Assembly (NCBI RefSeq): GCF_000219585.1
Contig: NC_015731.1
Location: 3,348,001 to 3,412,000 of the forward strand
DNA from: Nitrosomonas sp. Is79A3
Lineage (GTDB): Bacteria; Pseudomonadota; Gammaproteobacteria; Burkholderiales; Nitrosomonadaceae
Length of the DNA stretch: 64,000 bases
Direction: 5' to 3'
Below, in pieces: positions 31,075-51,125 of the stretch. The notes beneath the pieces are model-generated. The model saw only the letters and a program-made list of their open reading frames with translations, did not search any database and had not been told where the DNA came from. Positions within the stretch are counted from its first letter, which is position 1; each line of letters opens with the position of its first letter. Made by a program: the position numbers and the translations under genes.

Positions 31075-31599
31075 ATGCCCTTGGCAAAATTATACCTGTT
31101 GCTCTTTTGGGTGATCTTAAGTTACTCACCGCACGCACGAGCAGGCGAACTGGATGAATACACGTTAAAAACAGCTTTCCTATATAACTTTGCAGTTTAT
31201 ACGACATGGCCTGATACTGACGCCAGTACTTTTAACCTATGTATCTATGGAAACGATCCATTTGGCAAGAATCTCGATTTGTTAATGCAGAAAAAAAGAA
31301 TTGGTGATCGCACCATCACCATTCATCGAACGAACAATATTGATCGTCTCGATTCATGCCAGTTAGTTTTTATCTCCCGCTCATCGATTGACAACTTAAA
31401 AGACGTCATCTACACCCTGCAAGATAAACCTGCACTCATCGTAGCGGACAGTCCAGGTGCCATCCAACAAGGCATTGCACTCAACATGGAAGTTAAAGAC
31501 GAAAGAATTACATTTGAAGCCAATTTAATAGTAGTCAGAAAAGCTGGTCTGAATCTAAGTTCTCAGCTATTGCGCTTTGCCACTTCGGTGCTTCAGTAA
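31075..31599 (+). CDS. YfiR-family periplasmic protein, copy 1
   Basis: The 174-residue protein has a signal peptide (LYLLLFWVILSYSPHARA) and a YfiR (DUF4154) domain: YTLKTAFLYNFAVYTTWP, FNLCIYGNDPFG, SCQLVFIS, and a closing [14 protein letters not shown]. Its two cysteines match the conserved pair in YfiR that can form a disulfide. In Pseudomonas, YfiR is a periplasmic repressor of the diguanylate cyclase YfiN. It is the first of four paralogues and precedes a TonB-dependent receptor gene by 307 bp. Confidence 0.92.
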   Translation: MPLAKLYLLLFWVILSYSPHARAGELDEYTLKTAFLYNFAVYTTWPDTDASTFNLCIYGNDPFGKNLDLLMQKKRIGDRTITIHRTNNIDRLDSCQLVFISRSSIDNLKDVIYTLQDKPALIVADSPGAIQQGIALNMEVKDERITFEANLIVVRKAGLNLSSQLLRFATSVLQ

Positions 31600-31906
31600 T
31601 AAAGTATGGCTGAAATCTGCACACTGTTTTGTAGTATGTTGTAAAGATCTCATATTTTCACGTCCTTTTCCCTGAAGGAAGATCACAATCCCTAAGGAAT
31701 CTCTGAATAACTCACCTTTGTCATTCCGAACGTAGTGAGGAATCTTTGGCAATCAACAGTATAGATTTCTCGCTCTGCTCGAAATGACAGTGATTCAGAG
31801 GCTCCCTAATTTGATAAATTAAGGGTAATAAAAATCTTACTTCTCGGCTTTAATCGGTGATTGGGTATGTTTAAATCATGAAACTAAAAAAACAACCCTG
31901 TTCATT
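31600..31906. other. Intergenic region carrying a REP-like repeat
   Basis: Most of it is the repeat at 31691-31808. The remaining 100 bp should hold the start signals of the receptor gene, for which I see no clear promoter. Confidence 0.4.
31691..31808. repeat. REP-like palindromic repeat, divergent copy 2
   Basis: The ends CTAAGGAATCTCTGAATAA and GATTCAGAGGCTCCCTAA are imperfect inverted repeats. They enclose CATTCCGAACGTAGTGAGG and CTCTGCTCGAAATG, typical of dispersed palindromic repeats in proteobacteria. It resembles the other two copies in its ends and overall form but has a different core. Confidence 0.65.
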
Positions 31907-33919
31907 GTGTTTACCCCCAGAAAACTTGTTCTTCCGATCGTCAATACTCCTATAAAACAAAGCTTGCTGCTCGGTTTGCTTTTCATGCAAATATTTCCGG
32001 TCTGTGCGGCAAAGAATTTGGAGCAAATGAGCTTAGAGGAATTGATGAATATCAGCATTGTCGGCGCTTCAAAATATGAGCAGAAACAGCAGCAGGTTGC
32101 CGCTGCAGTCAGTGTCATTACCCGTGCAGATATCAGAACCTATGGCTGGCGCACGCTGAATCAAGCTCTCGCCAGCCTTCCCGGAATTCATACCACGTAT
32201 GATTATCAATATGAATATTTAGGCACACGCGGATTCGGCCTGCCAGGGGATTTCAATTCCCGCGTACTGATCACGATCAATGGCAACCGCATCAACGACG
32301 CAACTTATGACCAGGGACCCACCGGGCGTGATTTTCCACTCGATATAGATTTGATCGAACGGATTGAATTTTTTCCGGGTCCTGGCAGTGCCGTGTATGG
32401 ACAGAACGCCATGATGGGTGTTGTCAATATCGTTACGCGTACTGGCGCAAGTGTCAATGGTGCCGAGCTATCGACCTCATACCAGACAGCGGAAACCATG
32501 CCGCAGGAACGCGCCACCTTCGGTAAAAAGTTCAGTAACGGCACTGATGCGTTACTTTCTTTCTCAGGTCTTCAGTCCCGCGGAACAGATCGTTTTTTTG
32601 ATTATGGCGATTCCGGTATTTCAGGGGTGGCGCGCCGTTTGGATGGGGAAAATGTTAAGCAATTATTTGCACAAACCAAGCATGGTCCGCTCGCATTCGA
32701 CTTCATTTATGGTGACCGACGTAAAGATGACCCAACCGGCATGTTCTTTTCTGATCCATTGGCAGCCGGTCAATTTCAACGAGATCGTCGGCTCAACACA
32801 CAAATCCAGTATAACGACAGTTTTGCCAACGACACCCTCAACGTATTGGGCCGGTTGTTTCTTGGTCAATATCGCTATGATAACCCTTTAGTCTATGGTG
32901 GTGAAAAAACGCTATCCACCGGACCCAGCGACTGGCATGGTGCTGAATTGCGCCTGCTTTCCACTGCCTTGTCGAATCATAAACTGATGGCAGGTGTTGA
33001 GTATCAAAATAATACGTCCATCAAGCAATCCTTTCAGAATTTCGATCATCCTGAAGATAATATCGCGATCAAAAGTTCTGTTGTCCGTGTTGGTGTGTAC
33101 GCGCAAGACGAATGGCGCATTACCGACACCTTGTCCGCAACCGTAGGGCTGCGTTATGACTACAGCGCCTGGATTGGCAGTCTTGGCAATCGATTGAGTC
33201 CACGCGGCGCGCTGATTTGGCAAGCCACCCCAAAAACAACATTCAAAGCACTCTATGGCCGCGCCCACCGGTCACCGAATGCGTATGAGCGTGACTACAC
33301 CGATGGCATTTCCCAAGTTGCCAATCCAGGATTACGCAGCGAGATGGTTGATACCGCTGAACTCGTGGCAGATTATCTTCCGCTGCCGAATATGAATTTA
33401 CGCGCTACCGTTTACGCATGGGATATGCACAACATCATCGCGCTCGGAATCGATCCGGTCAGCGGATTATCGCAATATCAACAGACATCACAAAAAATAT
33501 TGGCCAAAGGCGCAGAATTATCGTTGGATAAAACATGGGATTGGGGCGTACGATTGCGCAGTAGTTTTGGTATTCAGAATGCTGAGCAACAGGGCTCACA
33601 CCTCCCCAACTCACCCTACCATCTGGGCAAGTTGAATATTTCCATTCCGATACCGCTGATCACCGGCTTGCGCGCCGGTTATGAGTTGCAATATTACGGC
33701 AAGCGCAAAACGCTTGATGGCACACATACCGATAATTATTTTCTTTCTAATCTGAATCTCGTCACCGATGTACGGTGGGTGAAAGGTCTTGAAGCATCGT
33801 TGAGCTTCTACAACTTGTTTAATGAGAACTACCAACACCCGGCTGCAGATACCAACTGGCAGAACTTTTTCTGGCAGCCTGGCAGGACCGTGCGTCTCCG
33901 AATGGATTATCGCTTCTAG
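31907..33919 (+). CDS. TonB-dependent receptor, copy 1
   Basis: The 670-residue protein begins at a GTG. It has an export signal ending near FPVCAA, then the LEELMNISIVGASKYEQK segment found before the plug in this receptor class. The plug domain includes TLNQALASLPGIHT, RVLITINGNRIND and VYGQNAMMGVVNIVT. The 22-strand barrel ends in MDYRF with the terminal Phe. It lies between two yfiR-type genes. The ligand is unknown, and no siderophore or vitamin genes are near. It is more divergent from the other three receptors, which are close relatives of each other. Confidence 0.92.
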   Translation: MFTPRKLVLPIVNTPIKQSLLLGLLFMQIFPVCAAKNLEQMSLEELMNISIVGASKYEQKQQQVAAAVSVITRADIRTYGWRTLNQALASLPGIHTTYDYQYEYLGTRGFGLPGDFNSRVLITINGNRINDATYDQGPTGRDFPLDIDLIERIEFFPGPGSAVYGQNAMMGVVNIVTRTGASVNGAELSTSYQTAETMPQERATFGKKFSNGTDALLSFSGLQSRGTDRFFDYGDSGISGVARRLDGENVKQLFAQTKHGPLAFDFIYGDRRKDDPTGMFFSDPLAAGQFQRDRRLNTQIQYNDSFANDTLNVLGRLFLGQYRYDNPLVYGGEKTLSTGPSDWHGAELRLLSTALSNHKLMAGVEYQNNTSIKQSFQNFDHPEDNIAIKSSVVRVGVYAQDEWRITDTLSATVGLRYDYSAWIGSLGNRLSPRGALIWQATPKTTFKALYGRAHRSPNAYERDYTDGISQVANPGLRSEMVDTAELVADYLPLPNMNLRATVYAWDMHNIIALGIDPVSGLSQYQQTSQKILAKGAELSLDKTWDWGVRLRSSFGIQNAEQQGSHLPNSPYHLGKLNISIPIPLITGLRAGYELQYYGKRKTLDGTHTDNYFLSNLNLVTDVRWVKGLEASLSFYNLFNENYQHPAADTNWQNFFWQPGRTVRLRMDYRF

Positions 33920-33989
33920 GTGATTGTTAATATGACATTATTGTATAAAAACATCGTCTGAAAAACAACTGACAATCAGATCTCACGAT

Positions 33990-34586
33990 ATGCTCATTTG
34001 GAAACTGGGAAAGCAAGAAACAATGATCTGCTATGGCAATCACCGTATCAGAAAGCGATTGTGCACCCGTTATTTTCCAATCTTGCCGCTGTGCTGGTTC
34101 TTGTTATTGGGTTACTCGCCATTGACACAAGCCGAGCAACCGTCAGAATACCGTTTAAAAGTGGCTTTTCTTTATAATTTTTCCGCTTACACGGAATGGC
34201 CTAGCTTGCCGGACCAGGCCCTGAATTTATGTATTTATGGTGAAGATCCATTTGGTGAAAATTTACAGCACTTACAGCATAAGAAAGTCCATGAACATAA
34301 AATACTGGTCCGGCATACGACAAATACAAAAGATCTTCCCGGTTGCCAGATTGTTTTCATCACCCGCTCGGGAATCGATAATCTCAGTGACATCATCAAA
34401 CAATTGAATGGATTGCCGATATTAACTATTGCCGACACCCCCGGCGCCAGCCAGCAGGGCGTTATTCTCAACATGGCCATTAATGAGGGAAAAGTCACAT
34501 TTGAAGCCAATGTGGCTATTGCAAAAAGAAATCGTTTAAAACTCAGTTCTCAACTACTACGTTTCGCCACCGAGGTTTATCAATAA
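33990..34586 (+). CDS. YfiR-family periplasmic protein, copy 2, coupled to the hybrid kinase
   Basis: The 198-residue protein has an export signal ending near LTQAEQ and a YfiR domain ([55 protein letters not shown]). The conserved cysteine pair is present. Its TAA overlaps the ATG of the hybrid kinase gene (TAATG), so the two proteins are made together. That, plus the YfiN-like periplasmic region of the kinase, suggests direct regulation of the kinase in the periplasm. The N-terminal 30 residues before the hydrophobic stretch may be mis-assigned; an internal Met at residue 12 is an alternative start. Confidence 0.92.
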
Positions 34587-37351
34587 TGAAGAGTTCATCA
34601 TCGACTGCTGTGACACTGCGTTCTAAATTGCAACAAATCAGCTTTGCCACACAGGGTACCGCAATGCTGCTGGTAGCAACACTCGTTATCTTAAGCAGCT
34701 TCTTCATAAGCTTTTTTTCTTTATTACAAACCAGTCAATCAACCGCAAAATTATTGGCTGAAAATGCAGTAGCAACATTGATGTTCCAGGATACCAGCAC
34801 GGCGCAGACACTATTACATTCGCTCAACAATACACGGGAAATCCAGGCTGCAGCCATTTATACTGCAGAAAAAGCAAAATTTGTACAATACTCTATTGAA
34901 AACAGACTGCTTCCGGAAACTTTAGCTTCTCTGCAAGAAGACGTTCAAACGAATATCCATTTCCTAGCCATTACGGAACCGATTCACTTCAATCACCAGC
35001 CTCTGGGCAGTCTGTACTTGGAAATATCCTTGCATCCCCTTTACTGGCAAATACTTTGGCACGTTGTGATCACAATCACTGCGGCGGTTATCGCATTATT
35101 GATTGCCAACCTTATGCTACAACGGCTTAATCGATCGGTTCTCGACCCGCTCAATAATCTATCCACTGTCATGGAGCATGTCACGAGTAAGGCAGATTAC
35201 ACAACTCGAACCGAACCCAGTGCGATTGTTGAATTGAATATGTTATCGAAGGGGTTCAATAGCATGTTGGAAATGATACAAGATCGTGATGCAAAGTTGG
35301 CTAACTATCTTGATCACCTCGAAGATGAAGTTGAAAAACGGACAGCAGAGCTGGTGCTTGCCAAGGAATCAGCAGAAGCGGCCAGTAAAGCCAAAAGTGA
35401 ATTTCTGGCCACGATGAGCCACGAGATCCGCACACCGATGAATGGCATCCTAGGAATGACCGAGTTACTGTTAGACACTCAATTAGATAAAGATCAGCAC
35501 CGTTTTGCAGAAACAGTTCAAAGCTCAGGTCAACACCTCCTCGGTATCATCAATGACATTCTTGATTTCTCCAAGATTGAATCCGATCACATGGAACTGG
35601 AAACCATCGATTTCGATCTGGTCAAGCTGATTGAAGATACACTAACCATGTTTGCACAACCCGCTGATAAGAAGGGTCTGGAATTGATCGCGCAGTTTAC
35701 GCCACCCAACACAGCCTTCATGTTACGCGGCGATTCATTCCGAATACGTCAGATCATTGCAAATCTGCTCAATAATGCCATTAAGTTCACCGAACAAGGA
35801 GAAATTGTCATTCGCACAATGCTGCTTGATGGAAGCGAAACCCTGACTAGGGTCTCCATATGCGTTGAAGATACGGGTATCGGAATTCCTCCGGTATACC
35901 ATGAGAAGATTTTCCAGAATTTTTCTCAGGCAGATGGTTCCACAACCCGTCAATATGGAGGAACCGGCCTTGGTCTGACTATCTGCAAAAAATTATTGGA
36001 ATTGATGGAAGGAAGCATTCATGTTGAAAGTTCTCCGGGGCACGGCTCCAAGTTTTGGATTAATCTGCGGCTGGAGAAATCCAAATTGCAACACAGCAAT
36101 TTTCCCGACATGACTAAATTACGCGGCGTCAGGGCGCTGGTTGTAGATGACAATCAAACTAACCGGGAGATTCTTAAACTACAATTGCAGAATTGGCAAA
36201 TAAATGTTGAATGTGCGGAAGATGCACAGCAGGCACTAGCATATATGACTCAGGCTGTTGCCGAGAATAAATCGTTTCATTTGGTCATTTTGGACATGCA
36301 CATGCCCCAAATGGATGGATTGCAACTGGCAAGAAAAATTCATGCACATCCGGATTTCAGCAAGACCCGTATGATGATGCTGACTTCAACCTACAGTAAC
36401 GCGAGCCAGCTCGAAAGACAGAATACGGGTATATTACGTTGTGTAAACAAGCCTGTCCGCCAGAAGGAATTATTGGACATTATCATTGATGTCATGGGGC
36501 GTGATCTTGATAACCACGCCACAAATCCTGAATTTGAGAAAGTATCTGTCAGCACGCTTACACAAAGCTTTCATGGCAAAGTTTTGCTGGCTGAAGATAA
36601 TCCTGTTAATCAGGAAGTAGCCAAGGCGATGCTGGCGAAACTCGGCTTGGACACAGTTATTGCTCATGATGGACAACAAGCTTTATATCTTATCCAAAAC
36701 AACCAATACGATCTCATTCTGATGGACTGCCAAATGCCTAACATGGATGGTTTTGAAGCAACCGCACACATCCGGCAGCAGTTTGGCAATAGTCATACCA
36801 TTATTGCACTGACCGCCAATGCCACAGAAGACGATCGCAAACGCTGCTTAGACGGAGGAATGAACGATTTTCTTTCCAAACCTTATTCAATCGATCAATT
36901 GCAACAAAAAATCCATCATTGGTTAAGTAAAGAAAAAAACTATCCGATGAATACTGTAAAATCAGAAATCATTGAACTAGAACCTAAAACTAACGCCATG
37001 CCTGCACTTAATCCGATACGGCTCGATCAAATTCGCGAGCTTGACTCAACCGGAGGAAACGGTTTGCTGCACAAGATCCTGCAAGCTTTTCTCGAATCTG
37101 CCACCAGTAATATGCACCAGCTTGAACAAGCTATTCTTAATGGTGATGCTGACAGTTTGCGTCAGTCAGCGCATGCATTAAAATCCAGTTCGGGGAATAT
37201 CGGGGCTGAAAACCTATCCGCTCTATTCAAGCAACTGGAAGCGAATGGACGAACAGGAGAATTAGCACAGGCAGAGAGATTAAAAGAAAGCCTACGGCAA
37301 CACTATCTGCAAGTCATCACCGAAATTAATAAAATACTCAATCCATCGTGA
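34586..37351 (+). CDS. Hybrid sensor histidine kinase with YfiN-like periplasmic domain
   Basis: The 921-residue protein has TM1 (about 24-47), a periplasmic region of about 110 residues ([30 protein letters not shown]) that reads like the CHASE8-type sensor of YfiN, then TM2 (157-178) and HAMP. HisKA follows with [11 protein letters not shown] (His279) and HATPase with its N-box near [10 protein letters not shown]. Two receiver domains ([13 protein letters not shown] and [13 protein letters not shown]) and an HPt domain ([12 protein letters not shown]) complete it. It is a complete phosphorelay. Its start overlaps yfiR copy 2, and its stop overlaps the next gene (GTGA). HPt output to the downstream REC protein is likely. 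Confidence 0.93.
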
Positions 37352-39468
37352 CAGTTGAACCTTTTAAAATCTTACTGGCCGATGATGATGCCACAGTCAG
37401 ATTGCTCATGCAGGCTGCATTAGAGAAGGCAGGCTTCGGTGTAACGCTGGCTTGCAATGGAGAAGAAGCCATCCGCCTGTTTGAAGCATCCCCAACAGAC
37501 ATGGTCATGCTGGATGTTGAAATGCCCTATATGAATGGTCATGAAGTTTGTTCGTACCTTCGCGCGAAAATAGGCAATGAGTTACCCATCATCATGGTAA
37601 CCGGAATGGATGATGTGCAATCCATTGACCGCGCCTTTGAAGCCGGTGCAACAGATTTTATCGCCAAACCGATAAACTGGAATTTGATCAATTATCGCAT
37701 TCTGTATTTAAAACGCGCCTACTTGAACCTCCTTGCACTCCAAATCGCTAACGCACGCAGCAAAGCAATCTTTAGCGCCATTCCAGATACGATGTTCATT
37801 TTGAATAATGACGGCAAAATCGTCGATATGTGCAGCCATTCGGATAATACACCTTGGCTAATCACCGGACCGGAAAATAATCTGAATCAAAGCCTACCTG
37901 CAGATATTGTCAATTTGTATCTGGATGCGGCTGGCCGAGCTCGCCGGTATGGAACGGTCGAGCTTTTCGAGTATCCGCTCAAACTGGATGATGATAAAAC
38001 CAGATACTATGAAAATCGTATTGTGGTTATTGATCCTCAGGAAACACTTTGCCTGGTTCGTGATATTACAGAGCGCAAGGATTCGGAAAACAAAATATTT
38101 CACCTCGCTTATTTTGATAATCTGACTGGATTACCCAACCGCCAATCCTTTATGGAGCGTTTAGAAGGAGAAATTAAACGCGCAAACTATACAGATAGCA
38201 AATTGGCGGTACTTTTTCTGGATTTGGATGGATTCAAAAGCATTAATGACACGATGGGACATAATACCGGCGATGTTATTCTGCAATCAACCGCTGACCG
38301 GCTGCAAAGCAGCACTCGTCCATCTGATTTTATATCCCGTAGCAACGCTGATAACTCAGAGGTTAAACTCGCTCGCCTCGGGGGCGATGAATTCACTGTC
38401 GTCATTCCTAATCTCCCTCGTGCAGAAGATGCCTTAATTCTGGCGCATCGAATTCGTGAAGCCATGCGCCGCCCTTTCCAGCTTGAGAGTCGTGATGTCG
38501 TCCTGACTGCGAGTATCGGCATTGCCCTCTACCCAGACGATGGTAAAGACGCGGAAACGCTACTGAAACATGCGGATACCGCAATGTATCACGCAAAAAA
38601 TGAAGGCCGGGATAACTGTCAATTTTACAATATCGACCTAACACTTCACGCCGAAAAACGCATGCATCTGGAAAATGATTTACGTAATGCATTGCAGCAA
38701 AATGAATTTCATCTTGTATACCAGCCGCAGTTGGATGTTGCGACTGGAAGTATACAATCGGTAGAAGCACTGATTCGCTGGCAGCATCCGCAACAAGGGC
38801 TCATTTCGCCTCTCGATTTTATTCCATTAGCCGAAGAAAATGGCCTCATCATCTCAATCGGTGCATGGGTGTTGCGGACAGCCTGCTCTGAAGCTGCTCA
38901 GTGGCACAAGAACGGGCAATGCTTACAAGTAGCGGTAAACCTCTCTCCTCTGCAGATAAAAAACCCTGAGCTGGTTGATACTGTCCTCAACATTCTGGCT
39001 GAGACCGGTTTTCCACCCAATAAGCTTGTTCTGGAAATCACCGAGGGCGCTTTAATGGAGCACAATGCTAATACCTTGACCAGACTCCACACGTTACGCG
39101 ATCATGGTATCGAAATTGCTCTGGATGATTTTGGCACAGGTTACTCTTCAATGAATTATTTAAAACGCCTGCCTATTAATAACATCAAAGTGGATCAAAG
39201 CTTTATACGTGGCCTGCTGAATGATAAAGACAGCCTTGCGATCGTCAAGGCAATAATCTCTTTATCGAAGAATCTTGGCTTTTCCGTGACTGCCGAAGGG
39301 ATCGAAACACTGAATCAGGCTCAAATTCTGAAATATTTCGGCTGCGAAACCTTGCAAGGCTTCTTCTTCAGCGAGCCCATCGCCATGAAAGAAATTTTTT
39401 CTCTCGCGGATAAACAGTGGATCATCCAGGCTGTCAAACCCAATGGAATAGATCATGAAAATTGCTGA
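37348..39468 (+). CDS. Response regulator with PAS, GGDEF and EAL domains
   Basis: Domains in order are REC (1-125, acceptor Asp in [13 protein letters not shown]), PAS (about 140-235), GGDEF (about 245-420) and EAL (435-690). GGDEF is intact (ARLGGDEF near 345), as is EAL (SVEALIRW near 473) with DDFGTGYSS. Both synthesis and hydrolysis of c-di-GMP are possible. Between the likely inhibitory RxxD (TRPSD) and GGDEF there is an unusual insertion of about 15 residues, which would move the I-site. The GTG start overlaps the kinase stop by four bases. It is the obvious output partner of the hybrid kinase. Confidence 0.93.
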
Positions 39469-41392
39469 TATTGACCAGTTAAAAATCGGCACATTATTAC
39501 CCAGTCCCAAAGGGGTCGCGCTTGCACTACTGGAAGCTTGCCAACGAGAAGATGTCACCATCAATGAAATCACCAAACTCATTCAAACTGACCCTGCACT
39601 CTCTGGCCGTTTGATTCAACGAGCCAATGCAACAAATCAGCGTAGCCGCGCTATTTCTTCTGTATTTGAGGCAGTACCTCATGTCGGTTTAACGGTAGTC
39701 AAACAGCTAGCAATGGGCTTTTCATTGATCGATCAATATCAAGAGGGCGCTTGTAAAGGATTTAATTATCAAGAATTCTGGTCACATTCGCTGCTCATGG
39801 CGATTGCTATGCAAGAGTTGGGTAAAACAACTCGCGTGTCTGCACCCGATGAATTATTTGCTTGCGGTTTGATGATGCGCATCGGTTGTTTGGCGTTAGC
39901 CACAATTTATCCGGATAAGTACACGGAACTCATAGCAAAACAATCGCCCGGCATAACTCTGAATGAATTGGAACAACAATATTTGCAGACTGACCATAAT
40001 GAATTGACCGCGGCTATGCTGATCAACTTTGGTGTTCCCAGAATCTTTGTAGAACCAATCTATTATCATGAAATACCGACTGAATCAGGTTTTTCCGAAG
40101 GTTCTCGCCCGTATCAAATTGTACATCTGCTGTATTTGGCTAAACAGATAGCTGATTTTGGATTGGCCGAAGAATCTGAACGTAACCAGCGCATCTCCGA
40201 ACTGATATTGTTTGGTGGACGAATTGGCCTGGACACAGAAACATTTGGTACCTTTATAGACCAAATCATGCAGGCATGGCACGCATGGGGACAAATACTC
40301 AAGCTGCCTGCTGTGGAAATTCCTCCCCCATTCGATAAGATGATGAATGCGGCTGCGCCACGCACCGAAAATGCGACGGATGCCGCTTCGCTGCGCATCC
40401 TTTTGGTAGAAGACGATCCAACCAGCCTCATTCTTGCCAAAGAGCTGTTATCTAAAGTTCTTGGTCACACGGTCTATTCAGCCAGTGACGGTCAGCAAGC
40501 TTTAGCGCTAGCGATGGAAATCTTACCGCATATTGTCGTAACAGACTGGCTGATGCCGGTAATGAATGGCCTTGAATTAACTAAATCTTTGCGTGCAACA
40601 GAGTGGGGGCAAAATTTATATATCATTATGCTGACTGGCATAGAAGATGAAGAAGAAGTCATCAAGGCATTTGACGCGGGTGTTGATGATTATGTAACAA
40701 AGCCCATTAATATTCGTGCCTTTCGAGCCAGATTGCGAGCAGCCTGGCATTATCGAAAGTTACAGGATTCATGGGATCATGATCGCGAACAGCTGAAGCG
40801 CTTTGCCGCCGAATTAGCCGTCACTAATCGTAGATTGGAGTATTTTGCTCTGACCGATATGCTGACCGAATTGCCCAATCGGCGCTCAGGCATGGAAACA
40901 CTGGCTGAAGTATGGAGCGTTGCGAACCGGTCCAACCAATCGATGGCTGTTATGCTCCTCGATATTGATCACTTCAAAGCTGTTAACGATACCCATGGCC
41001 ATGCCGTTGGCGACAAAGTGCTAAAACAAGTAGCCGCATCTATTCGAAAAATTGCCCGCAAAGGCGATACTTTTTGCCGTATGGGCGGAGAAGAGTTTTT
41101 GGTCATTTGCCAGCCGGGGAACATCGAATTAAAGTCCCTTGTTCTATTTGCAGAAAGACTCCGCCAGCATATCAATGCACAACAAATTGTCATCGGTGAA
41201 TTGCACATCCAAGTCTCCATTAGTATCGGTATTGCCTTAAAAGAAACCAGCATGAAAAGCGAAGACCAACTCGTCAATGCTGCTGATAAGGCGCTTTATG
41301 CCGCTAAAAATGCCGGTAGAAATAGAGTTTTCCTGATGATAAACAATAAGTTCTTAGCTGCACCCATAACACCCGTTAATCCCCCCAGGTAA
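39455..41392 (+). CDS. HDOD-REC-GGDEF signalling protein
   Basis: The 645-residue protein has an N-terminal HDOD domain (about 1-280; LIQTDPALSGRLIQRANA). REC follows at 313-435 (RILLVEDDP, acceptor Asp in IVVTDWLMPVMNG, Lys in YVTKP). The GGDEF domain (464-630) has GGEEF near 544 and an RxxD I-site (RKGD) five residues before it, so it should be an active, product-inhibited diguanylate cyclase. The start overlaps the previous gene by 14 bp. The REC could take phosphate from the same hybrid kinase, giving a branched output. Confidence 0.93.
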   Translation: MKIADIDQLKIGTLLPSPKGVALALLEACQREDVTINEITKLIQTDPALSGRLIQRANATNQRSRAISSVFEAVPHVGLTVVKQLAMGFSLIDQYQEGACKGFNYQEFWSHSLLMAIAMQELGKTTRVSAPDELFACGLMMRIGCLALATIYPDKYTELIAKQSPGITLNELEQQYLQTDHNELTAAMLINFGVPRIFVEPIYYHEIPTESGFSEGSRPYQIVHLLYLAKQIADFGLAEESERNQRISELILFGGRIGLDTETFGTFIDQIMQAWHAWGQILKLPAVEIPPPFDKMMNAAAPRTENATDAASLRILLVEDDPTSLILAKELLSKVLGHTVYSASDGQQALALAMEILPHIVVTDWLMPVMNGLELTKSLRATEWGQNLYIIMLTGIEDEEEVIKAFDAGVDDYVTKPINIRAFRARLRAAWHYRKLQDSWDHDREQLKRFAAELAVTNRRLEYFALTDMLTELPNRRSGMETLAEVWSVANRSNQSMAVMLLDIDHFKAVNDTHGHAVGDKVLKQVAASIRKIARKGDTFCRMGGEEFLVICQPGNIELKSLVLFAERLRQHINAQQIVIGELHIQVSISIGIALKETSMKSEDQLVNAADKALYAAKNAGRNRVFLMINNKFLAAPITPVNPPR

Positions 41393-41559
41393 AGCATAGC
41401 CGAATCCCTTTTATTCTAGAAAAGAACCATGAATTCCCGGTAATTTAAGTTTTAAAGAATACACTGCCCGGTTATCATGGAAAATTCTGACAAAAAAGAA
41501 TGAATATCCTTTTTTAACAAAAACCGATACATCAATAACAACCCCTAAAATCGTTTCTT

Positions 41560-43638
41560 GTGATCTCAATACCCGGCTCCGGCCTGACAATATTATTGAA
41601 TCTGAAGCTGTTCATATTCATTTTTCTATGTTGTTTAACCAATTTCTCGGCGGCAGATAGCAAAGCGATTACTGGAAGAAAATCGATTGAGAATCAATTT
41701 CTAGATCTCAGCATCGAAGAATTGATGAAAGTTGAAGTCACTTCCGCATCAAGACGCACACAGAAACTTTCTGAAGTCCCCTCTGCTATTTTCGTGATTA
41801 CCCAGGACGATATCCGCCGCTCTGGCGCGACCAGCATCCCGGAAGCCTTACGTATGGCTCCCGGTGTAGAAGTCGCGCGGATCGGCACGGATAAATGGGC
41901 AATCAGCATACGGGGTTTCAATGGCCGGTTTGCAGACAAGCTGCAGGTCCTGATGGATGGCCGGAGTGTTTACAATCCGCTCTTCGCTGGCGTCCAGTGG
42001 GAACAACAAGATACCTTGATGGAGGATATCGAACGTATCGAAGTGATACGCGGCCCCAATGCAGCCGTATGGGGCGCTAATGCGGTGAATGGCATTATCA
42101 ATATTATCACCAAGAAAGCTGCTGATACCCAAGGTACCTTGCTTTCAGCGGGTGGTGGCAGTTTTGAGCAAGGGTTTTTTGGCGCACGCCATGGTGGAAA
42201 AATCAATGACGATACCTTCTACCGCTTCTATGCCAAAGGATTCACCAGAGATCAGATGAAAACCACCTCGGGAGACAATGCCAATGATGCTTGGCACAAC
42301 GCCAGAGGGGGATTTAGACTGGATCACACACGCGGAATTGATCTGTTTACAATTCAAGGAGATATTTTTTACAACTCGTATGGCGATAGGCTAGACAAAT
42401 CCCAACTCAGCGCACCCATTATTCAAATGGAGGCATCCAGAGGACATAATGAAGGAGGGAATATCCGCTTGCGCTGGGATCGGACTATCTCTGAGAGGTC
42501 GGCGATCATGCTGCAAACCTATTACGATCGTGTCGACTATAAATTATTAACCAGTTCAATATTTAAAGCCGAAAGTTTTGATATTGATTTTCAGCATCGC
42601 TTTCCGCTTTTTGACAAGCACGATTTGACCTGGGGAGCCAATTACCGTTTATATCATAATAAAGTTTCGGATACCGAACTCATCTCATTTAGCCCGCGTC
42701 TGCAAACCAATCAACTCCTGAGCGCATTCATTCGGGATGAAATCACGTTGATACCCGAACATTTGCGATTTAACCTGGGCTCACGGTTCGATCACAATGA
42801 CTTTACCGGCATGGAAACTCAGCCTAACGCACGCTTGATGTGGACACCCGATACAAAAAATTCTATCTGGGCGTCAGTTTCACGTGCCGTTCGCACACCA
42901 TCCCGGGCAGAAAATGATATTCAGTTGAATGCCCGAACATTAAGCACTGCCCCTGGATTGTCAGCATTGTTACCTTTCCCGATTCTTGCGCAGTTAAATG
43001 GTGCATCAAATTTTAATTCTGAAAAGTTACTGGCTTACGAACTGGGATATCGCCATCAGTTTTCCCCGCAGGCATCGATTGATATCGCGGCTTTCTATAA
43101 TGATTATAGTCAACTACGGGACTTATCTGCCGGAATCCCATCTTTTCATGCCAGCTTTCCCCCTCACCTGATATTACCCGTAGGGCTAACCAATAAAGCT
43201 TCCGGTTATACACAAGGGGTTGAAACATCTGTCGATTGGCGGCCCAACGAAAGATGGCGTCTACAAGGGAACTACAGCTTTATCGACATGCATATTCACT
43301 CTGATTCTGCGCTCAAGAACCTGGATCCAACAACAGGCAGTGCAAACAAGGTAAGTCCGCAACATCAGGTTTCATTGCGCTCAAACTATGATGTATCGGA
43401 AAGATTGCAATTCAACCTCTGGCTGCGCTATGTCAGCAAAGTAGATTTCTACCATATTCCAGACTACGTCACCATGGATACCAGGCTGTCATTCAAGCCA
43501 GTAAAAAATTTCGAACTGTTCCTGGTTGGCCAGAACCTGCTTAGCCAAAACCACAAAGAGTTTGCATCTGATTTTATTCCCTCATTTCCCACTACCATAC
43601 CCCGTGGTGTTTATGCGGGTGCGGAATGGCGCTTCTAA
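41560..43638 (+). CDS. TonB-dependent receptor, copy 2
   Basis: The 692-residue receptor begins at a GTG with a signal peptide (LFIFIFLCCLTNFSAA). It has LSIEELMKVEVTSASRR, then the plug (IPEALRMAPGVEVARIG, KLQVLMDGRSVYNP, GPNAAVWGANAVNGIINII) and a full barrel ending YAGAEWRF. It is closely related to copies 3 and 4. Its stop is directly followed by the GTG of yfiR copy 3, without a gap, so the receptor and the YfiR protein are probably translated together. The ligand is unknown. Confidence 0.92.
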   Translation: MISIPGSGLTILLNLKLFIFIFLCCLTNFSAADSKAITGRKSIENQFLDLSIEELMKVEVTSASRRTQKLSEVPSAIFVITQDDIRRSGATSIPEALRMAPGVEVARIGTDKWAISIRGFNGRFADKLQVLMDGRSVYNPLFAGVQWEQQDTLMEDIERIEVIRGPNAAVWGANAVNGIINIITKKAADTQGTLLSAGGGSFEQGFFGARHGGKINDDTFYRFYAKGFTRDQMKTTSGDNANDAWHNARGGFRLDHTRGIDLFTIQGDIFYNSYGDRLDKSQLSAPIIQMEASRGHNEGGNIRLRWDRTISERSAIMLQTYYDRVDYKLLTSSIFKAESFDIDFQHRFPLFDKHDLTWGANYRLYHNKVSDTELISFSPRLQTNQLLSAFIRDEITLIPEHLRFNLGSRFDHNDFTGMETQPNARLMWTPDTKNSIWASVSRAVRTPSRAENDIQLNARTLSTAPGLSALLPFPILAQLNGASNFNSEKLLAYELGYRHQFSPQASIDIAAFYNDYSQLRDLSAGIPSFHASFPPHLILPVGLTNKASGYTQGVETSVDWRPNERWRLQGNYSFIDMHIHSDSALKNLDPTTGSANKVSPQHQVSLRSNYDVSERLQFNLWLRYVSKVDFYHIPDYVTMDTRLSFKPVKNFELFLVGQNLLSQNHKEFASDFIPSFPTTIPRGVYAGAEWRF

Positions 43639-44229
43639 GTGAACTTCGTGAACATGCGCTTATTTAATCGACTACTCAAGCGCTTAATTACATTCGTAAA
43701 ACTAAGCTTCTATCACTTTTTATTCGCTTTGTGTCTGGGGTTTTGTCTGCCGGTTTCCCACTCAGTGGCGATGGCTGACAGTATGGTTGAATACCAAGTC
43801 AAAGCAGCCTTTATTTATAACTTTATTGCTTTCACCCATTGGCCCGACAGCACCAGTCAAACGATTAATCTTTGTGTTTATGGCGAAGATTATTTCGGCA
43901 ACGAGATCGACAAACTCGAAAGCAGATCGGTTAATAAACGTCATATCAAAGTGATACGTATTGATAATGTTGAGAAATTAAAAGAATGCCAAGCTATCTT
44001 CTTTTCCAAATCGGTTAGTAATAATCTATCAAGTATTTTGGTTAACCTACAAAATGAGCCCATCCTGACACTGGCAGATACTCCAAACGCCACATCAAAA
44101 GGTATCACAATAAATATGAGCTTGATTAATGAAAAAATTGTTTTCGAAATCAATCTAGCTATCGCCCGGGAATCCGGGTTGGATATCAGCTCCAAATTGC
44201 TACAGCTCGCTGTTAAGGTACATCAATAA
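43639..44229 (+). CDS. YfiR-family periplasmic protein, copy 3
   Basis: The 196-residue protein starts at a GTG abutting the receptor stop; an internal ATG at 43651 is an alternative. The signal peptide is about residues 15-46 (FLFALCLGFCLPVSHSVAMA). The YfiR domain has YQVKAAFIYNFIAFTHWP, INLCVYGEDYFG, ECQAIFFS and LDISSKLLQLAVKVHQ. It is nearly identical to copy 4 at 47641-48237 through most of its length, showing a recent duplication of a receptor-yfiR unit. Confidence 0.92.
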   Translation: MNFVNMRLFNRLLKRLITFVKLSFYHFLFALCLGFCLPVSHSVAMADSMVEYQVKAAFIYNFIAFTHWPDSTSQTINLCVYGEDYFGNEIDKLESRSVNKRHIKVIRIDNVEKLKECQAIFFSKSVSNNLSSILVNLQNEPILTLADTPNATSKGITINMSLINEKIVFEINLAIARESGLDISSKLLQLAVKVHQ

Positions 44230-44393
44230 TCAGTTCTGTGAGCATGAATTATTTCGCCAGACTCTGGAGATAAAAGAACCTGTTTTAAACGTCAAAAAAA
44301 GGACTTAAACCCATCAACTTCAAGCTTCAAGGCACCCAATACTAAAATACCATAGCAAATCCTACTTCAATAATCCCTGAAAACAATTTGTTT

Positions 44394-45524
44394 ATGATTC
44401 CATTGCAAAATTCATTTGCAAAACTAAATTTAGGGTTATTGATTTTTGCCTTCTCCAATTGCCTAGAAAATTCTGCGGTTGCCGGAAGTAAATTAATTCC
44501 TGCCAATAAGCCTTTAGACAATCGGCTACTAGATCTGAGCATCGAGGAGTTGATGAAAGTTGAAGTCACTTCGGCATCAAGACACTCACAAAAACTTTCA
44601 GAAATTTCTTCTGCGATCTTCGTTATAACTCAAGACGATATTCGCCGATCAGGCGCAACCAGCATCCTCGAAGCACTGCGTATGGCACCTGGTGTAGAGG
44701 TGGCACGCGTAGGAACTGATAAGTGGTCGATCAGCGTGCGTGGGTTCAATGGACGCTTTGCCAATAAACTGCAAGTCTTGATGGATGGACGAAGTGTCTA
44801 TACGCCACTATTTTCCGGTGTGATTTGGAGCCAGCAAGATACGCTCATTGAAGATATTGAACGCATTGAAGTGATACGCGGACCCGGTGCCACAGTCTGG
44901 GGCGCTAATGCCGTCAATGGCGTGATCAATATCATTACCAAAAAGGCCGCCGATACACAAGGCATGCTTGTCACTACAGGTGGCGGTAGTTTTGAACAAG
45001 GTTTTGTAGGTGTGCGGTATGGCAGAAAATTCAATGAAGACACGCCCTTCCGCATTTATGCCAAAGGATTTAGCAGAGACAATACCACGTCGCTGTCCGG
45101 CACCAACGTTCATGACAACTGGCGCTCCGCCAGAGCTGGTTTCCGCTTGGATCATAGGCGCGGAATCGATCAGTTGACATTACAAGGCGATATTTTCGTT
45201 AATAGCATCGGCGATAGCTTACTACAACCATCACTCGCGGCACCTTTCACTCGTCCCGATATCGTGGATAGCAAAGAAAAAGGCGGAAATATCCGTTTGC
45301 GCTGGGACCGTACCTTATCCGAAAAATCTTCCATTATTCTGCAAGCATACTACGACCGGGTAAATAACCAGCTCGCGCCATGGACAAAATATGCAGAAAG
45401 CTTTGACGTAGATTTTCGACATCGATTGCCGCTATTTACCCGGTACGATGTTACCTGGGGCCTCAATTACCGGCTATGCATGGCAACGCAAATTCCGAGG
45501 GGAGTATACGCTGGTGTCGAATGA
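44394..45524 (+). pseudogene. TonB-dependent receptor, copy 3, with internal barrel deletion
   Basis: The first 360 residues follow copies 2 and 4 closely (LSIEELMKVEVTSASRH, ALRMAPGVEVARVG, KLQVLMDGRSVYTP) into the early barrel (YDVTWGLNYRL). The sequence then jumps straight to the very C-terminus (ATQIPRGVYAGVE). About 320 residues of barrel are missing. The final Trp codon of EWRF is also TGA, so the terminal strand is lost. The product could not form a channel. The next receptor gene starts about 20 bp later. No yfiR gene follows this copy, so the deletion or a recombination event may have removed it. Confidence 0.88.
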
Positions 45525-45544
45525 CCCATCTAAGCGAAAACACT

Positions 45545-47641
45545 ATGAAAACATTAGAATCTGAAACCCAGTCATCACCTGCTCTTTTAGCCTTGAAATT
45601 GGGCCGGTTTGAATTTTTTATCCAGAAATTCTTAATAATTGCCATTCTTGCAGGTATTGGAAATACCTCATACGCGGGAAGTAAATCCGTTGAGAATCAG
45701 TTTCTGAATTTAAGCATCGAAGAACTGATGAATGTCAGTGTAACCACTGCATCCAGACGCTCACAAAAATTGACCGAAATACCATCGGCTGTTTTTGTGA
45801 TTACACAAGATGATATACGCCGGTCTGGTGTAACGAATATTCCTGATGCTTTAAGAATGGCACCCGGCGTGCAAGTGGAACGCGTGGGTACGGACAAATG
45901 GTCCATCAGTATTCGTGGCTTTAATGGTCTGTATGCCAATAAGCTTCAGGTACTCATGGATGGGCGAAGCGTTTATTCTCCGATATTCTCAGGCGTGCTA
46001 TGGGAACAACAAGATACGCTCATTGAAGACATTGAGCGGATTGAGGTGATTCGTGGCCCAGCCGCTACAGTCTGGGGAGCGAATGCGGTGAATGGCGTCA
46101 TTAATATCATCACCAAGAAAGCCGCGGATACGCAAGGCACACTCCTTACTGCTGGTGGAGGAAGTTTCGAGCAGGGCTTTGTGGGGGCACGCTATGGTGG
46201 AAAAATCAATGAAGAGACACCTTTCCGCGTCTACGCAAAAGGATTCTCCAGAGACAACACGGCATCATTATCAGGAGCGAACAATCACGATCAATGGCAT
46301 TCTGCCAGAGGAGGATTCCGCGTAGACCACTCCCGTGGAATCGATCAATTTACCTTGCAGGGTGATATTTTCACCAATTCTGTCGGCGGGACACTCAATA
46401 GAGCAGTGCTCGATTTACCTTCTGTATCTGCTAATGGTCAACGCGGTCATCAGGAAGGTGGAAATATACGCTTCCGCTGGGATCGGACTTATTCCGAGCG
46501 TTCTTCAGTCATGCTACAAACGTATTACGATCAAAGCCGCTCTGAATTATTGCCAGTCGGAAAATATCTTTCTGAGAGCTTTGACATTGATTTTCAACAT
46601 CGATTTCCGCTATTCGATAGACACGACCTCACTTGGGGAACCAATTACCGCTTATACCGCAACAAAGTCTTTGATACTGATATTGTAACTTTTAGTCCCC
46701 GCCAGCAATCTAATCAATTGTTTAGTGCTTTTATACGAGATGACATCTCGCTGGTGCCGGATCGCTTGCGGTTCACACTAGGCACTCGGCTCGATCACAA
46801 TGACTTTACCGGATTGGAAATTCAACCCAATGCACGCTTAATGTGGACGCCCAATCCTGAGAATTCAGCTTGGATGTCAGTTTCTCGTGCCGTGCGGACG
46901 CCTTCACGCAGTGAGAATGATGCAATTCTTAATTTAGCGCAATTGCATGCTCTACCAGGATCATCTTTTCCCTTACCCATCCCTATTCTAGCAACACTGC
47001 AAGGTTCAAGTAGCTTCAATTCAGAGAAGTTGCTTGCTTACGAAATAGGATACCGGCATCAGTTCTCTCCGCAGGCATCCATCGATATGACTGGTTTTAT
47101 CAACGATTATAGTCAATTGCGTGATTTAAGCTTTGGTGCTTTGTCATTAAGCACAGGGCTGCCGCGACAATTGATATTACCAGCATTACTTAATAATCAG
47201 GCCTCTGCGCTTACTTATGGTTTTGAAGTATCTACTGATTGGCGGCCTGTGGATAAATGGCGCCTGCAAAGCAGCTACAGCTTTCTTGATATGCATATTT
47301 CCTCCAATGAATTACTAAAAAAACTGGATCCAACCAATGGTGGCGCAGCCAAGGTGAACCCTCAGCATCAATTGTCACTGCGCTCAAACTATGATTTCTC
47401 TGAAAAATTGCAGCTTAACCTTTGGTTGCGTTATACCAGTGCTATCTCGTTTTACAGTATCCCGAGCTATGTCACGATGGATGCAAAGCTGGCGTACAAA
47501 CCAATACGAAATGTTGAATTATTTCTCGTAGGGCAAAATCTTTTTAGTCAAAACCACCGAGAATTAGTATCCGACGGTGTTCCTTTCATGCCGGCATTTA
47601 TACCACGTGGAATTTACGCAGGAGCGGAGTGGCGCTTCTAA
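45545..47641 (+). CDS. TonB-dependent receptor, copy 4
   Basis: The start chosen is the ATG at 45545 (MKTLESETQ); the open frame runs upstream into the deleted receptor but without support. The 698-residue protein has a signal-like segment (FLIIAILAGIGNTSYA), LSIEELMNVSVTTASRR, the plug motifs (ALRMAPGVQVERVG, KLQVLMDGRSVYSP, GPAATVWGANAVNGVINII) and a full barrel ending YAGAEWRF. Its TAA overlaps the ATG of yfiR copy 4 (TAATG). It is most like copies 2 and 3 and so belongs to a local tandem expansion. Confidence 0.92.
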   Translation: MKTLESETQSSPALLALKLGRFEFFIQKFLIIAILAGIGNTSYAGSKSVENQFLNLSIEELMNVSVTTASRRSQKLTEIPSAVFVITQDDIRRSGVTNIPDALRMAPGVQVERVGTDKWSISIRGFNGLYANKLQVLMDGRSVYSPIFSGVLWEQQDTLIEDIERIEVIRGPAATVWGANAVNGVINIITKKAADTQGTLLTAGGGSFEQGFVGARYGGKINEETPFRVYAKGFSRDNTASLSGANNHDQWHSARGGFRVDHSRGIDQFTLQGDIFTNSVGGTLNRAVLDLPSVSANGQRGHQEGGNIRFRWDRTYSERSSVMLQTYYDQSRSELLPVGKYLSESFDIDFQHRFPLFDRHDLTWGTNYRLYRNKVFDTDIVTFSPRQQSNQLFSAFIRDDISLVPDRLRFTLGTRLDHNDFTGLEIQPNARLMWTPNPENSAWMSVSRAVRTPSRSENDAILNLAQLHALPGSSFPLPIPILATLQGSSSFNSEKLLAYEIGYRHQFSPQASIDMTGFINDYSQLRDLSFGALSLSTGLPRQLILPALLNNQASALTYGFEVSTDWRPVDKWRLQSSYSFLDMHISSNELLKKLDPTNGGAAKVNPQHQLSLRSNYDFSEKLQLNLWLRYTSAISFYSIPSYVTMDAKLAYKPIRNVELFLVGQNLFSQNHRELVSDGVPFMPAFIPRGIYAGAEWRF

Positions 47642-48237
47642 TGAGAAACGTGGACATGCCCTTATTTAATCGACTACTCAGACTCTCAGATACATTCACA
47701 TTCGTGAAACGAAGTTTCTATCACTTCTTATTCGCCTTGTATCTGGGTTTCTGCCTGCCGGTTTCTCACTCGGTGGCCATGGCCGACAGCATAATTGAAT
47801 ATCAAGTCAAAGCAGCGTTTATTTATAACTTTATTGCTTTCACGCATTGGCCGGACAACACCAGTCAAACGATTAATCTTTGTGTTTATGGGGAAGATTA
47901 TTTCGGCAAAGAAATCGACAAGCTAGAAAGCAGATCGATTAATAAACGTCATATCAAAGTAACGCGTATTGATGATGTTGAGAAATTAAAAGCGTGTCAG
48001 GTAATCTTTTTTTCTAAATCGGTTAGCAGCCACTTATCAAGCATCTTAAGCGAATTACAGAATGAACCCATCCTCACGCTTGCTGACAGCCCGAATGCTA
48101 CTGCACAGGGTATTGCAATCAATATGAGCTTAATCAATGAGAAAATTGTTTTTGAAATTAATTTAGCCAGAGTACGCAGGTCAGGGCTTGATATCAGTTC
48201 AAAATTACTACAACTCGCTGTTAAAGTGCATCAATAG
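47641..48237 (+). CDS. YfiR-family periplasmic protein, copy 4
   Basis: The start chosen is the ATG that overlaps the receptor stop, giving 198 residues. The signal region (FLFALYLGFCLPVSHSVAMA) and the domain (YQVKAAFIYNFIAFTHWP, INLCVYGEDYFG, ACQVIFFS, ISSKLLQLAVKVHQ) nearly match copy 3. The conserved cysteine pair is present. Together with copy 4 of the receptor it forms a coupled receptor-yfiR unit. Direct contact between the two products is an inference from this coupling. Confidence 0.92.
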   Translation: MRNVDMPLFNRLLRLSDTFTFVKRSFYHFLFALYLGFCLPVSHSVAMADSIIEYQVKAAFIYNFIAFTHWPDNTSQTINLCVYGEDYFGKEIDKLESRSINKRHIKVTRIDDVEKLKACQVIFFSKSVSSHLSSILSELQNEPILTLADSPNATAQGIAINMSLINEKIVFEINLARVRRSGLDISSKLLQLAVKVHQ

Positions 48238-48521: not shown

Positions 48522-49403
48522 ATGAAACAGCACATAAAACAGTTACTTTTATCGGCCTGCACATTCTTTCTGTTCTGCAATACGCATTCTGCTCTCGCTG
48601 ATACTGCAAGTGATACCGAAACATTGCTCAACTGGGCTGAGAACACTTACCCGACGATCTTCCCGAGCCGCCAGGCCACGCAAAACATCGAGCCCTGGTT
48701 ATACCGGCACTATCCAGAATCTGGTATTTATGCCGGTGTAAACAAAAACGATAATAGTGTTTATGTGTTGGGGGGGCCTTGGGGAAATAATCCGGCAGTT
48801 ATTGATACGCTTGCAAACCTGATTAGCCAAATCGAAAATTCTGGCGGGAGTGGCGGTATCGCCGCTTGTGATACTACTGATGCGCTTTCTGGCGTATCTT
48901 ATAGCCAGAGCGGCAATGTCGTAACGGTCACTACCAGCGGCCAATGCGTCCCCGCCCCTGATCTGACTAAAACCAATCTCTGTCAGGTACCAAAACAAAC
49001 TACTGCAAGCGGCATTTCCTTGCTTGGCAGCAATACGATTACTTCATCAAGCATAGTAGGTTTATCAACCAGCATTCCAGGATTACCTAATCCGTTTCAA
49101 GCTATTGTCGATGCAGCAGCAAACGTTAAACACTGCACGATGAATGCGCCGGCTGAAACTGCCAACTTGGTTGTCAATTCCGATCTTTGTCTCGATATTA
49201 CAACAGCCATAACCGAAACGATCGCGGCTCTACCCATCGATGGCATAGTGATGACACCCCCGGTGAATTATTTCACAAAAGGCACTTACAAAAGTCAGAG
49301 CGTACCCGATTGCTTTGAGACGGATGCTACGACGATTAGTGACGCCTTGACAGGGGAAGTTTGGATTAACCAAGGTGGGGGGTTTGTTAAACTGGGCAGT
49401 TAA
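48522..49403 (+). CDS. Secreted hypothetical protein with a YRxYPxSGxYxGV-type domain
   Basis: The 293-residue protein has a signal peptide (LLLSACTFFLFCNTHSALA). A recurring small domain follows: ETLLNWAENTYPTIFPS, EPWLYRHYPESGIYAGVN, DNSVYVLGG. I know this pattern from many secreted or surface proteins of betaproteobacteria, without an assigned function. The rest has eight or so cysteines and Thr/Ser-rich beta strands, suggesting a disulfide-bonded extracellular domain. The ATG follows GAGGTGC. It ends just before a shared terminator with the convergent REC-TPR gene. Confidence 0.75.
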   Translation: MKQHIKQLLLSACTFFLFCNTHSALADTASDTETLLNWAENTYPTIFPSRQATQNIEPWLYRHYPESGIYAGVNKNDNSVYVLGGPWGNNPAVIDTLANLISQIENSGGSGGIAACDTTDALSGVSYSQSGNVVTVTTSGQCVPAPDLTKTNLCQVPKQTTASGISLLGSNTITSSSIVGLSTSIPGLPNPFQAIVDAAANVKHCTMNAPAETANLVVNSDLCLDITTAITETIAALPIDGIVMTPPVNYFTKGTYKSQSVPDCFETDATTISDALTGEVWINQGGGFVKLGS

Positions 49404-51103: not shown

Positions 51104-51125
51104 GATTACAAGAAATGATCATTAA

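Follow-up and report, generated by a model that had tools for sequence, protein, structure and literature searches.

A block of TonB-dependent receptor, YfiR and CHASE8 kinase genes in Nitrosomonas sp. Is79A3 and its possible role as a receptor-gated relative of YfiBNR

How news of a ligand travels from an outer-membrane receptor to a cytoplasmic kinase is, to our knowledge, mostly unexplained outside the sigma/anti-sigma transducers. The question is raised by a gene block of Nitrosomonas sp. Is79A3, located at positions 31075-48237 of the window (the whole stretch of 64,000 nucleotides that was analysed, positions 3,348,001 to 3,412,000 of contig NC_015731.1). All of its genes lie on the + strand, in the order YfiR1, TonB-dependent receptor (TBDR) A, YfiR2, a hybrid kinase, a REC-GGDEF-EAL protein, an HDOD-REC-GGDEF protein, TBDR-B, YfiR3, a truncated TBDR-C, TBDR-D and YfiR4. 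The block is an expansion of a TBDR-YfiR-CHASE8 module that recurs in many phyla. It may well be a relative of YfiBNR that is gated by ligand, with the receptor acting on YfiR and YfiR in turn on the kinase, a reading to which we give a probability of about 0.58.

Linkage of receptor, YfiR and CHASE8 genes

The first-pass annotation of this DNA had placed YfiR between the receptors and the kinase, and had named a genome survey without conserved linkage as a result that would speak against this. Such a survey was run, and its outcome did not contradict the reading. Of 150 genomes from the phylum, DUF4154 (the YfiR family) was over cut-off in 40 and CHASE8 in 43, and both were found in 16 of 61 genomes from the family. 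The first survey comprised 89 loci, annotated with profiles grown from the window proteins. A contig scan added 79 named loci, from 80 of 308 relatives, with titles including Magnetococcales, Competibacteraceae, Deltaproteobacteria/Desulfobacterales, Acidobacteria, Nitrospira, Verrucomicrobia, Planctomycetota, Poribacteria and Schekmanbacteria, among others; nine contig-scan loci were dropped before counting as duplicates of genome-search loci, by contig (L210, L211, L213, L214, L216, L217, L224 and L231) or bin name (L229). A module was defined as a same-strand chain of TBDR, YfiR and CHASE8 genes with gaps under 400 bp, and linkage was counted for the 136 of 173 YfiR with 3 kb on both sides, leaving out the other 37.

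Receptor, YfiR and CHASE8 genes stood side by side in many phyla. A TBDR was in the module for 115/136 YfiR and within 5 kb for 125/136, while for a random gene the chance of a neighbouring TBDR, roughly calculated from 12 genomes, is about 0.2-2.4%. By set, the module contained a TBDR for 42 of 47 YfiR from the genus (counting the four of the window), 29 of 37 from the remaining phylum genomes and 44 of 52 on named contigs, the corresponding values for CHASE8 being 19/47, 34/37 and 49/52; the rest-of-phylum set represents fewer independent lineages, because several of its 30 genomes come from one family. The CHASE8 partners were mostly hybrid kinases, with some GGDEF or GGDEF-EAL proteins. 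Full-length homologues of TBDR-B (over 450 bits) were present in 12 of 15 YfiR-bearing genus-mates and in none of 15 YfiR-less genomes (six of the genus, nine of the family; best score 73 bits). A FastTree phylogeny was built from 139 TBDRs of modules and 45 others; on it the module label changed 7 times, compared with 40.6 after shuffling.

The place of the receptor can be compared with that of YfiB, the outer-membrane lipoprotein of YfiBNR. With E. coli YfiB as query, no match was found between positions 27001 and 52000 of the window, where TBDRs are present instead. Among the 89 first-survey loci a match stood beside YfiR in one, G130, where no TBDR was seen within the contig (about 1 kb upstream of YfiR); two further OmpA-like matches in that survey were not beside YfiR, and the named-contig loci gave no YfiB match. 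The family of G130 had seven YfiR in 59 genomes: three in modules of the form YfiR-CHASE8GGDEF-YfiB, and four with a TBDR, of which three were ordered CHASE8GGDEF-YfiR-TBDR, the genes being spaced by 0 to -10 bases. One outer-membrane partner therefore stands where the other does, with the same output in three of the TBDR modules.

Some modules have no receptor nearby. Neither verrucomicrobial locus had a same-strand TBDR (L226 none, L244 a divergent one). A hidden receptor was considered for the TBDR-less modules, and Pfam of 17 proteins, mostly neighbours of YfiR or its kinase, gave no Plug match, so that some modules are truly without a nearby receptor. Two loci, L221 and L225, had a tandem YfiR-YfiR-CHASE8-histidine kinase arrangement without TBDR, beside genes for RTX/cadherin-like repeat proteins, and here a surface protein may act in the receptor's stead. 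A long same-strand cluster was seen in L345:1-9289 together with L091, comprising YfiR, a CHASE8 histidine kinase, REC-GGDEF-EAL, histidine kinase-REC, REC, REC-histidine kinase and a TBDR about 13 kb from YfiR.

The block and two candidate contact sites

The first-pass annotation had counted four YfiR, four TBDRs (one of them broken) and three signalling genes, and Pfam recovered the same contents at about the same coordinates. All four YfiR matched PF13689 with E-values between 1e-40 and 1e-44, and the YfiR profile matched only YfiR chains in PDB (E<=0.01). YfiR1 (31075..31599, 174 aa, E=8.7e-41) falls in an upstream cassette class of the genus tree and YfiR2 (33990..34586, E=5.8e-41) in a kinase-adjacent class, while YfiR3 (43639..44229) abuts the TBDR-B stop, and YfiR4 (47629..48237, E=2.7e-44) likely starts at 47641 because of a TAATG overlap at 47639-47643. 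TBDR-A (31907..33919, 670 aa, no STN match), TBDR-B (41560..43638, 692 aa) and TBDR-D (45476..47641, 721 aa from the first start, a likelier one being near 45545) carry both plug and beta-barrel (PF07715, PF00593). Truncated TBDR-C (44388..45524) has the plug and part of the barrel, matching PF07715 only; it is without most of the barrel and ends in GVE ahead of the usual WRF. The kinase (34586..37351, 921 aa) has the architecture CHASE8-HAMP-HisKA-HATPase-REC-REC-Hpt (CHASE8, PF17152, E=3e-15) and is followed by the REC-GGDEF-EAL (37348..39468) and HDOD-REC-GGDEF (39455..41392) genes. By eye, the SHEIRTP His, both REC Asp, the Hpt His, GGDEF, GGEEF and EAL all look intact.

The translational couplings that had been described were read directly in the sequence: TAA|GTG at 43638/43639 (TBDR-B stop, then YfiR3 start), TAATG at 34584-34588 joining YfiR2 to the kinase, and the TAATG already mentioned, which joins TBDR-D to YfiR4. 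The kinase and REC-GGDEF-EAL genes overlap by 4 bases. In the whole genome (3.78 Mb, one contig) there are four YfiR, all in the block, one CHASE8 over cut-off, also in the block, with one weak second match elsewhere below it, and nine Plug proteins, four of them in the block; a chance block is ruled out by these counts.

On the kinase side, a candidate contact site is provided by CHASE8, the sensor domain of E. coli DgcN/YfiN. YfiR docking has been put on the AAVVF stretch of YfiN, according to the relevant passages of Malone et al. 2012 (PMC3375315). Residues 63-67 of the block kinase, ATLMF (34772..34786), align with this motif, and Phe67 aligns with the DgcN Phe. The docking Phe was present in 135/135 CHASE8 domains of the surveyed loci aligned with DgcN, against 1/22 CHASE8-like domains away from YfiR, and in 6/6 further modules; with DgcN included, 135 of 136 domains have Asp two residues past it. 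A same-strand YfiR lay directly beside 124 of the 135. The CHASE8 region of the block kinase was modelled with AlphaFold2 (AF2) at a predicted local distance difference test score (pLDDT) of 90 and its fold neighbours are Cache/PAS-like, namely WalK and a LapD orthologue (both E<0.001) and, more weakly, CitA; phmmer of PDB with this region gave no match. On the YfiR side, the Phe equivalent to PaF162 is present in all four YfiR of the block, and across the survey in 108/123 kinase-module and 31/33 cassette copies but only 6/11 GGDEF-module copies. The first Cys pair was mostly kept across the survey and the second almost wholly lost.

Three natural fusions of YfiR to HisKA-HATPase-REC (about 860 aa, followed by a REC gene) were found at L107:6042-8636, L115:9373-11952 and L078:6065-8614, and amount to kinases with YfiR as a built-in sensor. 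In the L107 fusion a long coiled-coil-like stretch and one transmembrane helix, seen by eye, lie between YfiR and kinase.

The receptor side offers a second candidate site. Module TBDRs share the motif S-[IL]-E-[EDQ]-L-M (S-x-E-E-L-M) before the plug, which in the block reads SLEELM in TBDR-A (32030..32047, a candidate docking peptide from sequence and motif column statistics) and SIEELM in TBDR-B (41710..41727, residues 51-56), truncated TBDR-C (44538..44555) and TBDR-D (45713..45730). Numbered as in TBDR-B, Leu55 is found in 137/139 module TBDRs versus 13/45 others, Met56 in 98/139 versus 4/45 and Glu53 in 108/139 versus 11/45. The AF2 model of TBDR-B (mean pLDDT 85) is confident in plug and barrel, while residues 32-57, which include the motif, are below pLDDT 50; near-invariance at a position within a disordered tail is what suggests a linear motif. 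In L341 and L342 the remote receptors have P-L-E-Q-L-[LM], and that of L343 has no match to the motif expression. Among unlinked TBDRs, a stretch similar to the motif but with Met or Ile in place of Leu occurs in those of L169 and L185, and that of L183 has the full motif. The L169 receptor turned out to belong to a same-strand cluster with YfiR about 13 kb upstream. The receptors of L183 and L185 remain unlinked; both genomes contain YfiR-kinase modules, or kinases, that have no same-strand TBDR next to them. In the known system, the extended N-terminal linker of YfiB puts a hydrophobic residue into a YfiR pocket, as described in the relevant passages of PMC4655355 and PMC4887326, and by analogy we propose that the TBDR tail could insert into the same pocket.

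Three classes account for most YfiR in the genus tree. The kinase-adjacent class has 14 rows, of which 12 stand next to a kinase, and the cassette classes have 7 (upstream) and 19 (downstream). Within this genome YfiR3 pairs with YfiR4 as its sister (support 98), whereas TBDR-B and TBDR-D each group with different receptors of other species, and four-fold site agreement is 0.57 for YfiR3/4 and 0.34 for TBDR-B/D. The adaptors were therefore probably homogenised or duplicated after the receptors had diverged, and the arrangement is probably one of different receptors, the same adaptor and one kinase.

As to output, the gene after 122 CHASE8 kinases was REC-GGDEF-EAL in 22 cases, REC without further profile match in 16, REC-GGDEF in 5, other signalling in 18 and without profile match in 61. 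Ten REC genes beside kinases were scanned with Pfam (three REC-cyclase, from Magnetococcales; two REC-HD; one REC-PAS; four bare REC), and a DNA-binding domain was found in none. A genus-mate has a single 1637-aa frame, CHASE8-HK-REC-REC-Hpt-REC-GGDEF-EAL (HK, histidine kinase; L072:8325-13238), in which the kinase is fused to its usual next gene, and TBDRs are retained beside GGDEF or GGDEF-EAL CHASE8 proteins, outputs with no transcriptional arm. These gene contents point to second messengers rather than transcription as the output, although half of the kinases have no adjacent regulator. Three Magnetococcales modules (L121:12404-13912, L126:770-2311, L215:11010-12557) are followed by REC plus adenylate/guanylate cyclase, not GGDEF.

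Several features of the surroundings were also recorded. The gap between YfiR1 and TBDR-A holds a dispersed repeat (31719-31745) with a 21-base core present in 22 genome copies (0-1 mismatch; none for the reversed control). Just past the block lies a gene for a 293-aa secreted-looking protein with no Pfam match (48522-49403), and then, on the - strand, a TPR-response regulator and a histidine kinase (49457-51851); same-order REC and histidine kinase genes flank the block in G171, G187, G205 and G207. YfiR2 had no match in viral contigs in one scan, which reaches close relatives only. Elsewhere, PF02461 (ammonia monooxygenase) matches of equal score at G000:C1:506380, 1183073 and 3047314 are probably three amo copies, which would make the bacterium an ammonia oxidiser, although this family also covers particulate methane monooxygenase.

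Proposed mechanism and rival readings

From the anatomy of the block, the linkage across phyla and the conservation of residues and motif, we infer a scheme that supplies binding events, sign, ligand and phosphotransfer targets. YfiR would be a periplasmic adaptor that docks on the CHASE8 domain of the hybrid kinase in the inner membrane, through the same Phe site as on YfiN, and would keep the kinase in one state, probably off. A dedicated TBDR would fill the outer-membrane place of the lipoprotein YfiB. Ligand binding or the pull of TonB could change the exposure of the disordered pre-plug tail, which would then capture or release YfiR and so switch the kinase. Phosphate would pass through REC and Hpt to the REC-GGDEF-EAL and HDOD-REC-GGDEF proteins and set the level of cyclic diguanylate (c-di-GMP). 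In Is79A3 several receptor-YfiR cassettes would feed one kinase, so that several ligands could be integrated. The position of YfiR between receptor and kinase, the centre of the first-pass interpretation, is supported by linkage in many phyla and by the preserved YfiN docking residue; that interpretation as a whole is borne out in part.

A number of observations weigh against this scheme. As many as 21 of the 136 YfiR have no TBDR in the module, and the TBDR search profile, grown from the window's receptors, favours similar ones. Eleven of the 135 Phe-bearing CHASE8 domains, from the same surveys, are not directly beside YfiR. The 22 CHASE8-like control domains are remoter relatives, some poorly aligned, so that their lack of the docking Phe is partly a matter of family distance and the contrast is weakened. 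The one control with the Phe, L148, we take to be a kinase of the BarA/GacS type, since its Pfam ranking has CHASE8 below sCache_4 and it is flanked by RelA/SpoT-like and tRNA uracil-methyltransferase-like genes. The block YfiRs keep the first Cys pair, but the classic second pair is absent in all four. The best-sorting branch of the receptor tree has all 139 module TBDRs on one side, but its support is only 52, it was picked post hoc for purity and 11 of the 45 unlinked TBDRs lie inside it. The pre-plug region includes a V-x-V-T-S-x-S-R/K stretch that resembles a TonB box. The S-x-E-E-L-M motif may equally serve TonB contact rather than YfiR.

Nor is the alternation of YfiB and TBDR clean everywhere: in L088 the contig extends only about 1 kb past YfiR on its upstream side, L343 has an OmpA-like open reading frame (E=9.3e-9) 2.2 kb off and outside the module, and at L113:667-1365 a 232-aa OmpA-like frame, with a weak YfiB match (E=8.5e-5), lies 265 bases after the REC-GGDEF-EAL gene of a TBDR module, possibly a case of both outer-membrane partners. 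A distance test used the 84 complete triples among 170 non-fused YfiR, those with both partners. Rank correlations were 0.54 for YfiR-CHASE8, 0.41 for YfiR-TBDR, 0.32 for CHASE8-TBDR and 0.22 for CHASE8 and its own kinase core, and the CHASE8-TBDR value fell to 0.13 given YfiR, which fits YfiR in the middle; the signal is not specific, since YfiR and the kinase core correlate at 0.42. Finally, where a cassette has no kinase next to it, its YfiR may act on another target.

Three other explanations were weighed. The receptor might simply import a substrate that YfiR binds, so that the CHASE8 kinase is released or engaged without any contact between receptor and YfiR. TBDRs ordinarily import into the periplasm, and in P. 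aeruginosa the YfiR pocket that accepts YfiB Phe57 also binds vitamin B6 or L-Trp, although the reported affinity is in the ten-millimolar range (both from the relevant part of PMC4887326). A substrate carrier leaves unexplained both the alternation of TBDR and YfiB in one slot and the conserved motif in a disordered tail, and we regard it as unlikely. It is less probable that the kinase merely controls expression of the neighbouring uptake TBDRs, like many two-component systems beside their targets. Kinase-transporter neighbours are common, and the 61 of 122 kinases with no profiled response regulator directly after them leave room for a distant transcriptional regulator. Against simple co-regulation stand the retention of TBDRs beside CHASE8 proteins with a GGDEF or GGDEF-EAL end, the lack of DNA-binding domains in the ten scanned response regulators, and again the shared slot of TBDR and YfiB.

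Slightly more doubtful is the idea that only YfiR2 regulates the kinase, the cassette YfiRs being assembly or stability partners of the receptors. The 33 YfiR whose TBDR cassettes include no CHASE8 gene in the module, and the separate YfiR classes in the genus, agree with such a division of labour, but the near-universal PaF162-equivalent Phe of cassette YfiRs does not.

A receptor-gated YfiR is preferred, and a generalisation of it can be put forward tentatively, at a little less than even confidence: a broad signalling class (in Pseudomonadota, Desulfobacterota, Acidobacteriota, Nitrospirota and others) in which a linear motif before the TBDR plug gates a periplasmic repressor of a kinase or cyclase, independently of sigma/anti-sigma factors, and in which cassettes multiply round one kinase and widen the ligand range. 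If true, one gene module in many phyla would answer the question of receptor-to-kinase signalling, YfiR would gain a ligand-gated input, and ligand sensing at the outer membrane would be tied to c-di-GMP. Unassigned TBDRs would obtain a predicted sensory role from sequence alone, and two residue sites, the CHASE8 Phe and the receptor pre-plug Leu/Met, would become of interest. In the relevant part of one regulator census, TBDRs were counted as signalling parts only beside extracytoplasmic function sigma factors (PMC9611778).

Comparison with known systems

Systems of the FecA-FecR-FecI type also signal across the envelope from a TBDR through a periplasmic step. The block receptors differ in being without STN, and neither an STN domain nor FecR/FecI neighbours were found in the block (Pfam, E<=0.001); with no anti-sigma/sigma pair there, the signal would go to a kinase. 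WalK with YycH is an example of a kinase sensor regulated by a separate extracytoplasmic protein, and the likeness extends to a Cache/PAS-like sensor, WalK being a fold neighbour of CHASE8. That system is Gram-positive and has no outer-membrane receptor, and no sequence kinship is claimed.

The closest relationship is with YfiBNR of P. aeruginosa and YfiR-DgcN-YfiB of E. coli, which share with the block a DUF4154 adaptor, a CHASE8 sensor with the docking Phe, adjacent genes and a c-di-GMP enzyme output. The block differs in that its sensor is on a hybrid kinase (HisKA-HATPase-REC-REC-Hpt), without a GGDEF cyclase on the same chain, that its outer-membrane partner is a TBDR rather than the OmpA-like lipoprotein YfiB, that its YfiR have no second Cys pair, and that it has several receptor-YfiR cassettes per kinase.

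The claim that no mechanism had been described for such neighbours holds, in the literature searched, for the receptor input but not for the core, since a modular YfiR-YfiN core with GGDEF-EAL, Hpt or histidine-kinase outputs was proposed in silico by Malone et al. 2012 (PMC3375315), as the relevant passages show. In the cores described there, YfiR is next to a CHASE8/PAS-HAMP protein with kinase output and YfiB is missing, and the block has such a core: YfiR adjoins a CHASE8-HAMP protein, the output is variable and the interface residues are kept. Of the described cases, Thauera sp. MZ1T comes nearest, having two YfiR and a single hybrid kinase. TonB is mentioned nowhere in the main text. The relevant passages treat the missing YfiB as absence or loss, whereas the block has a TBDR there. 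In open-licence PMC full text, no paper was found that treats YfiR or CHASE8 and a TonB receptor as one system, and the passages of open-licence papers containing both words drew no such link. What goes beyond the 2012 YfiR-YfiN idea is a receptor as partner, the way it alternates with YfiB, and two motifs that are candidates for contact.

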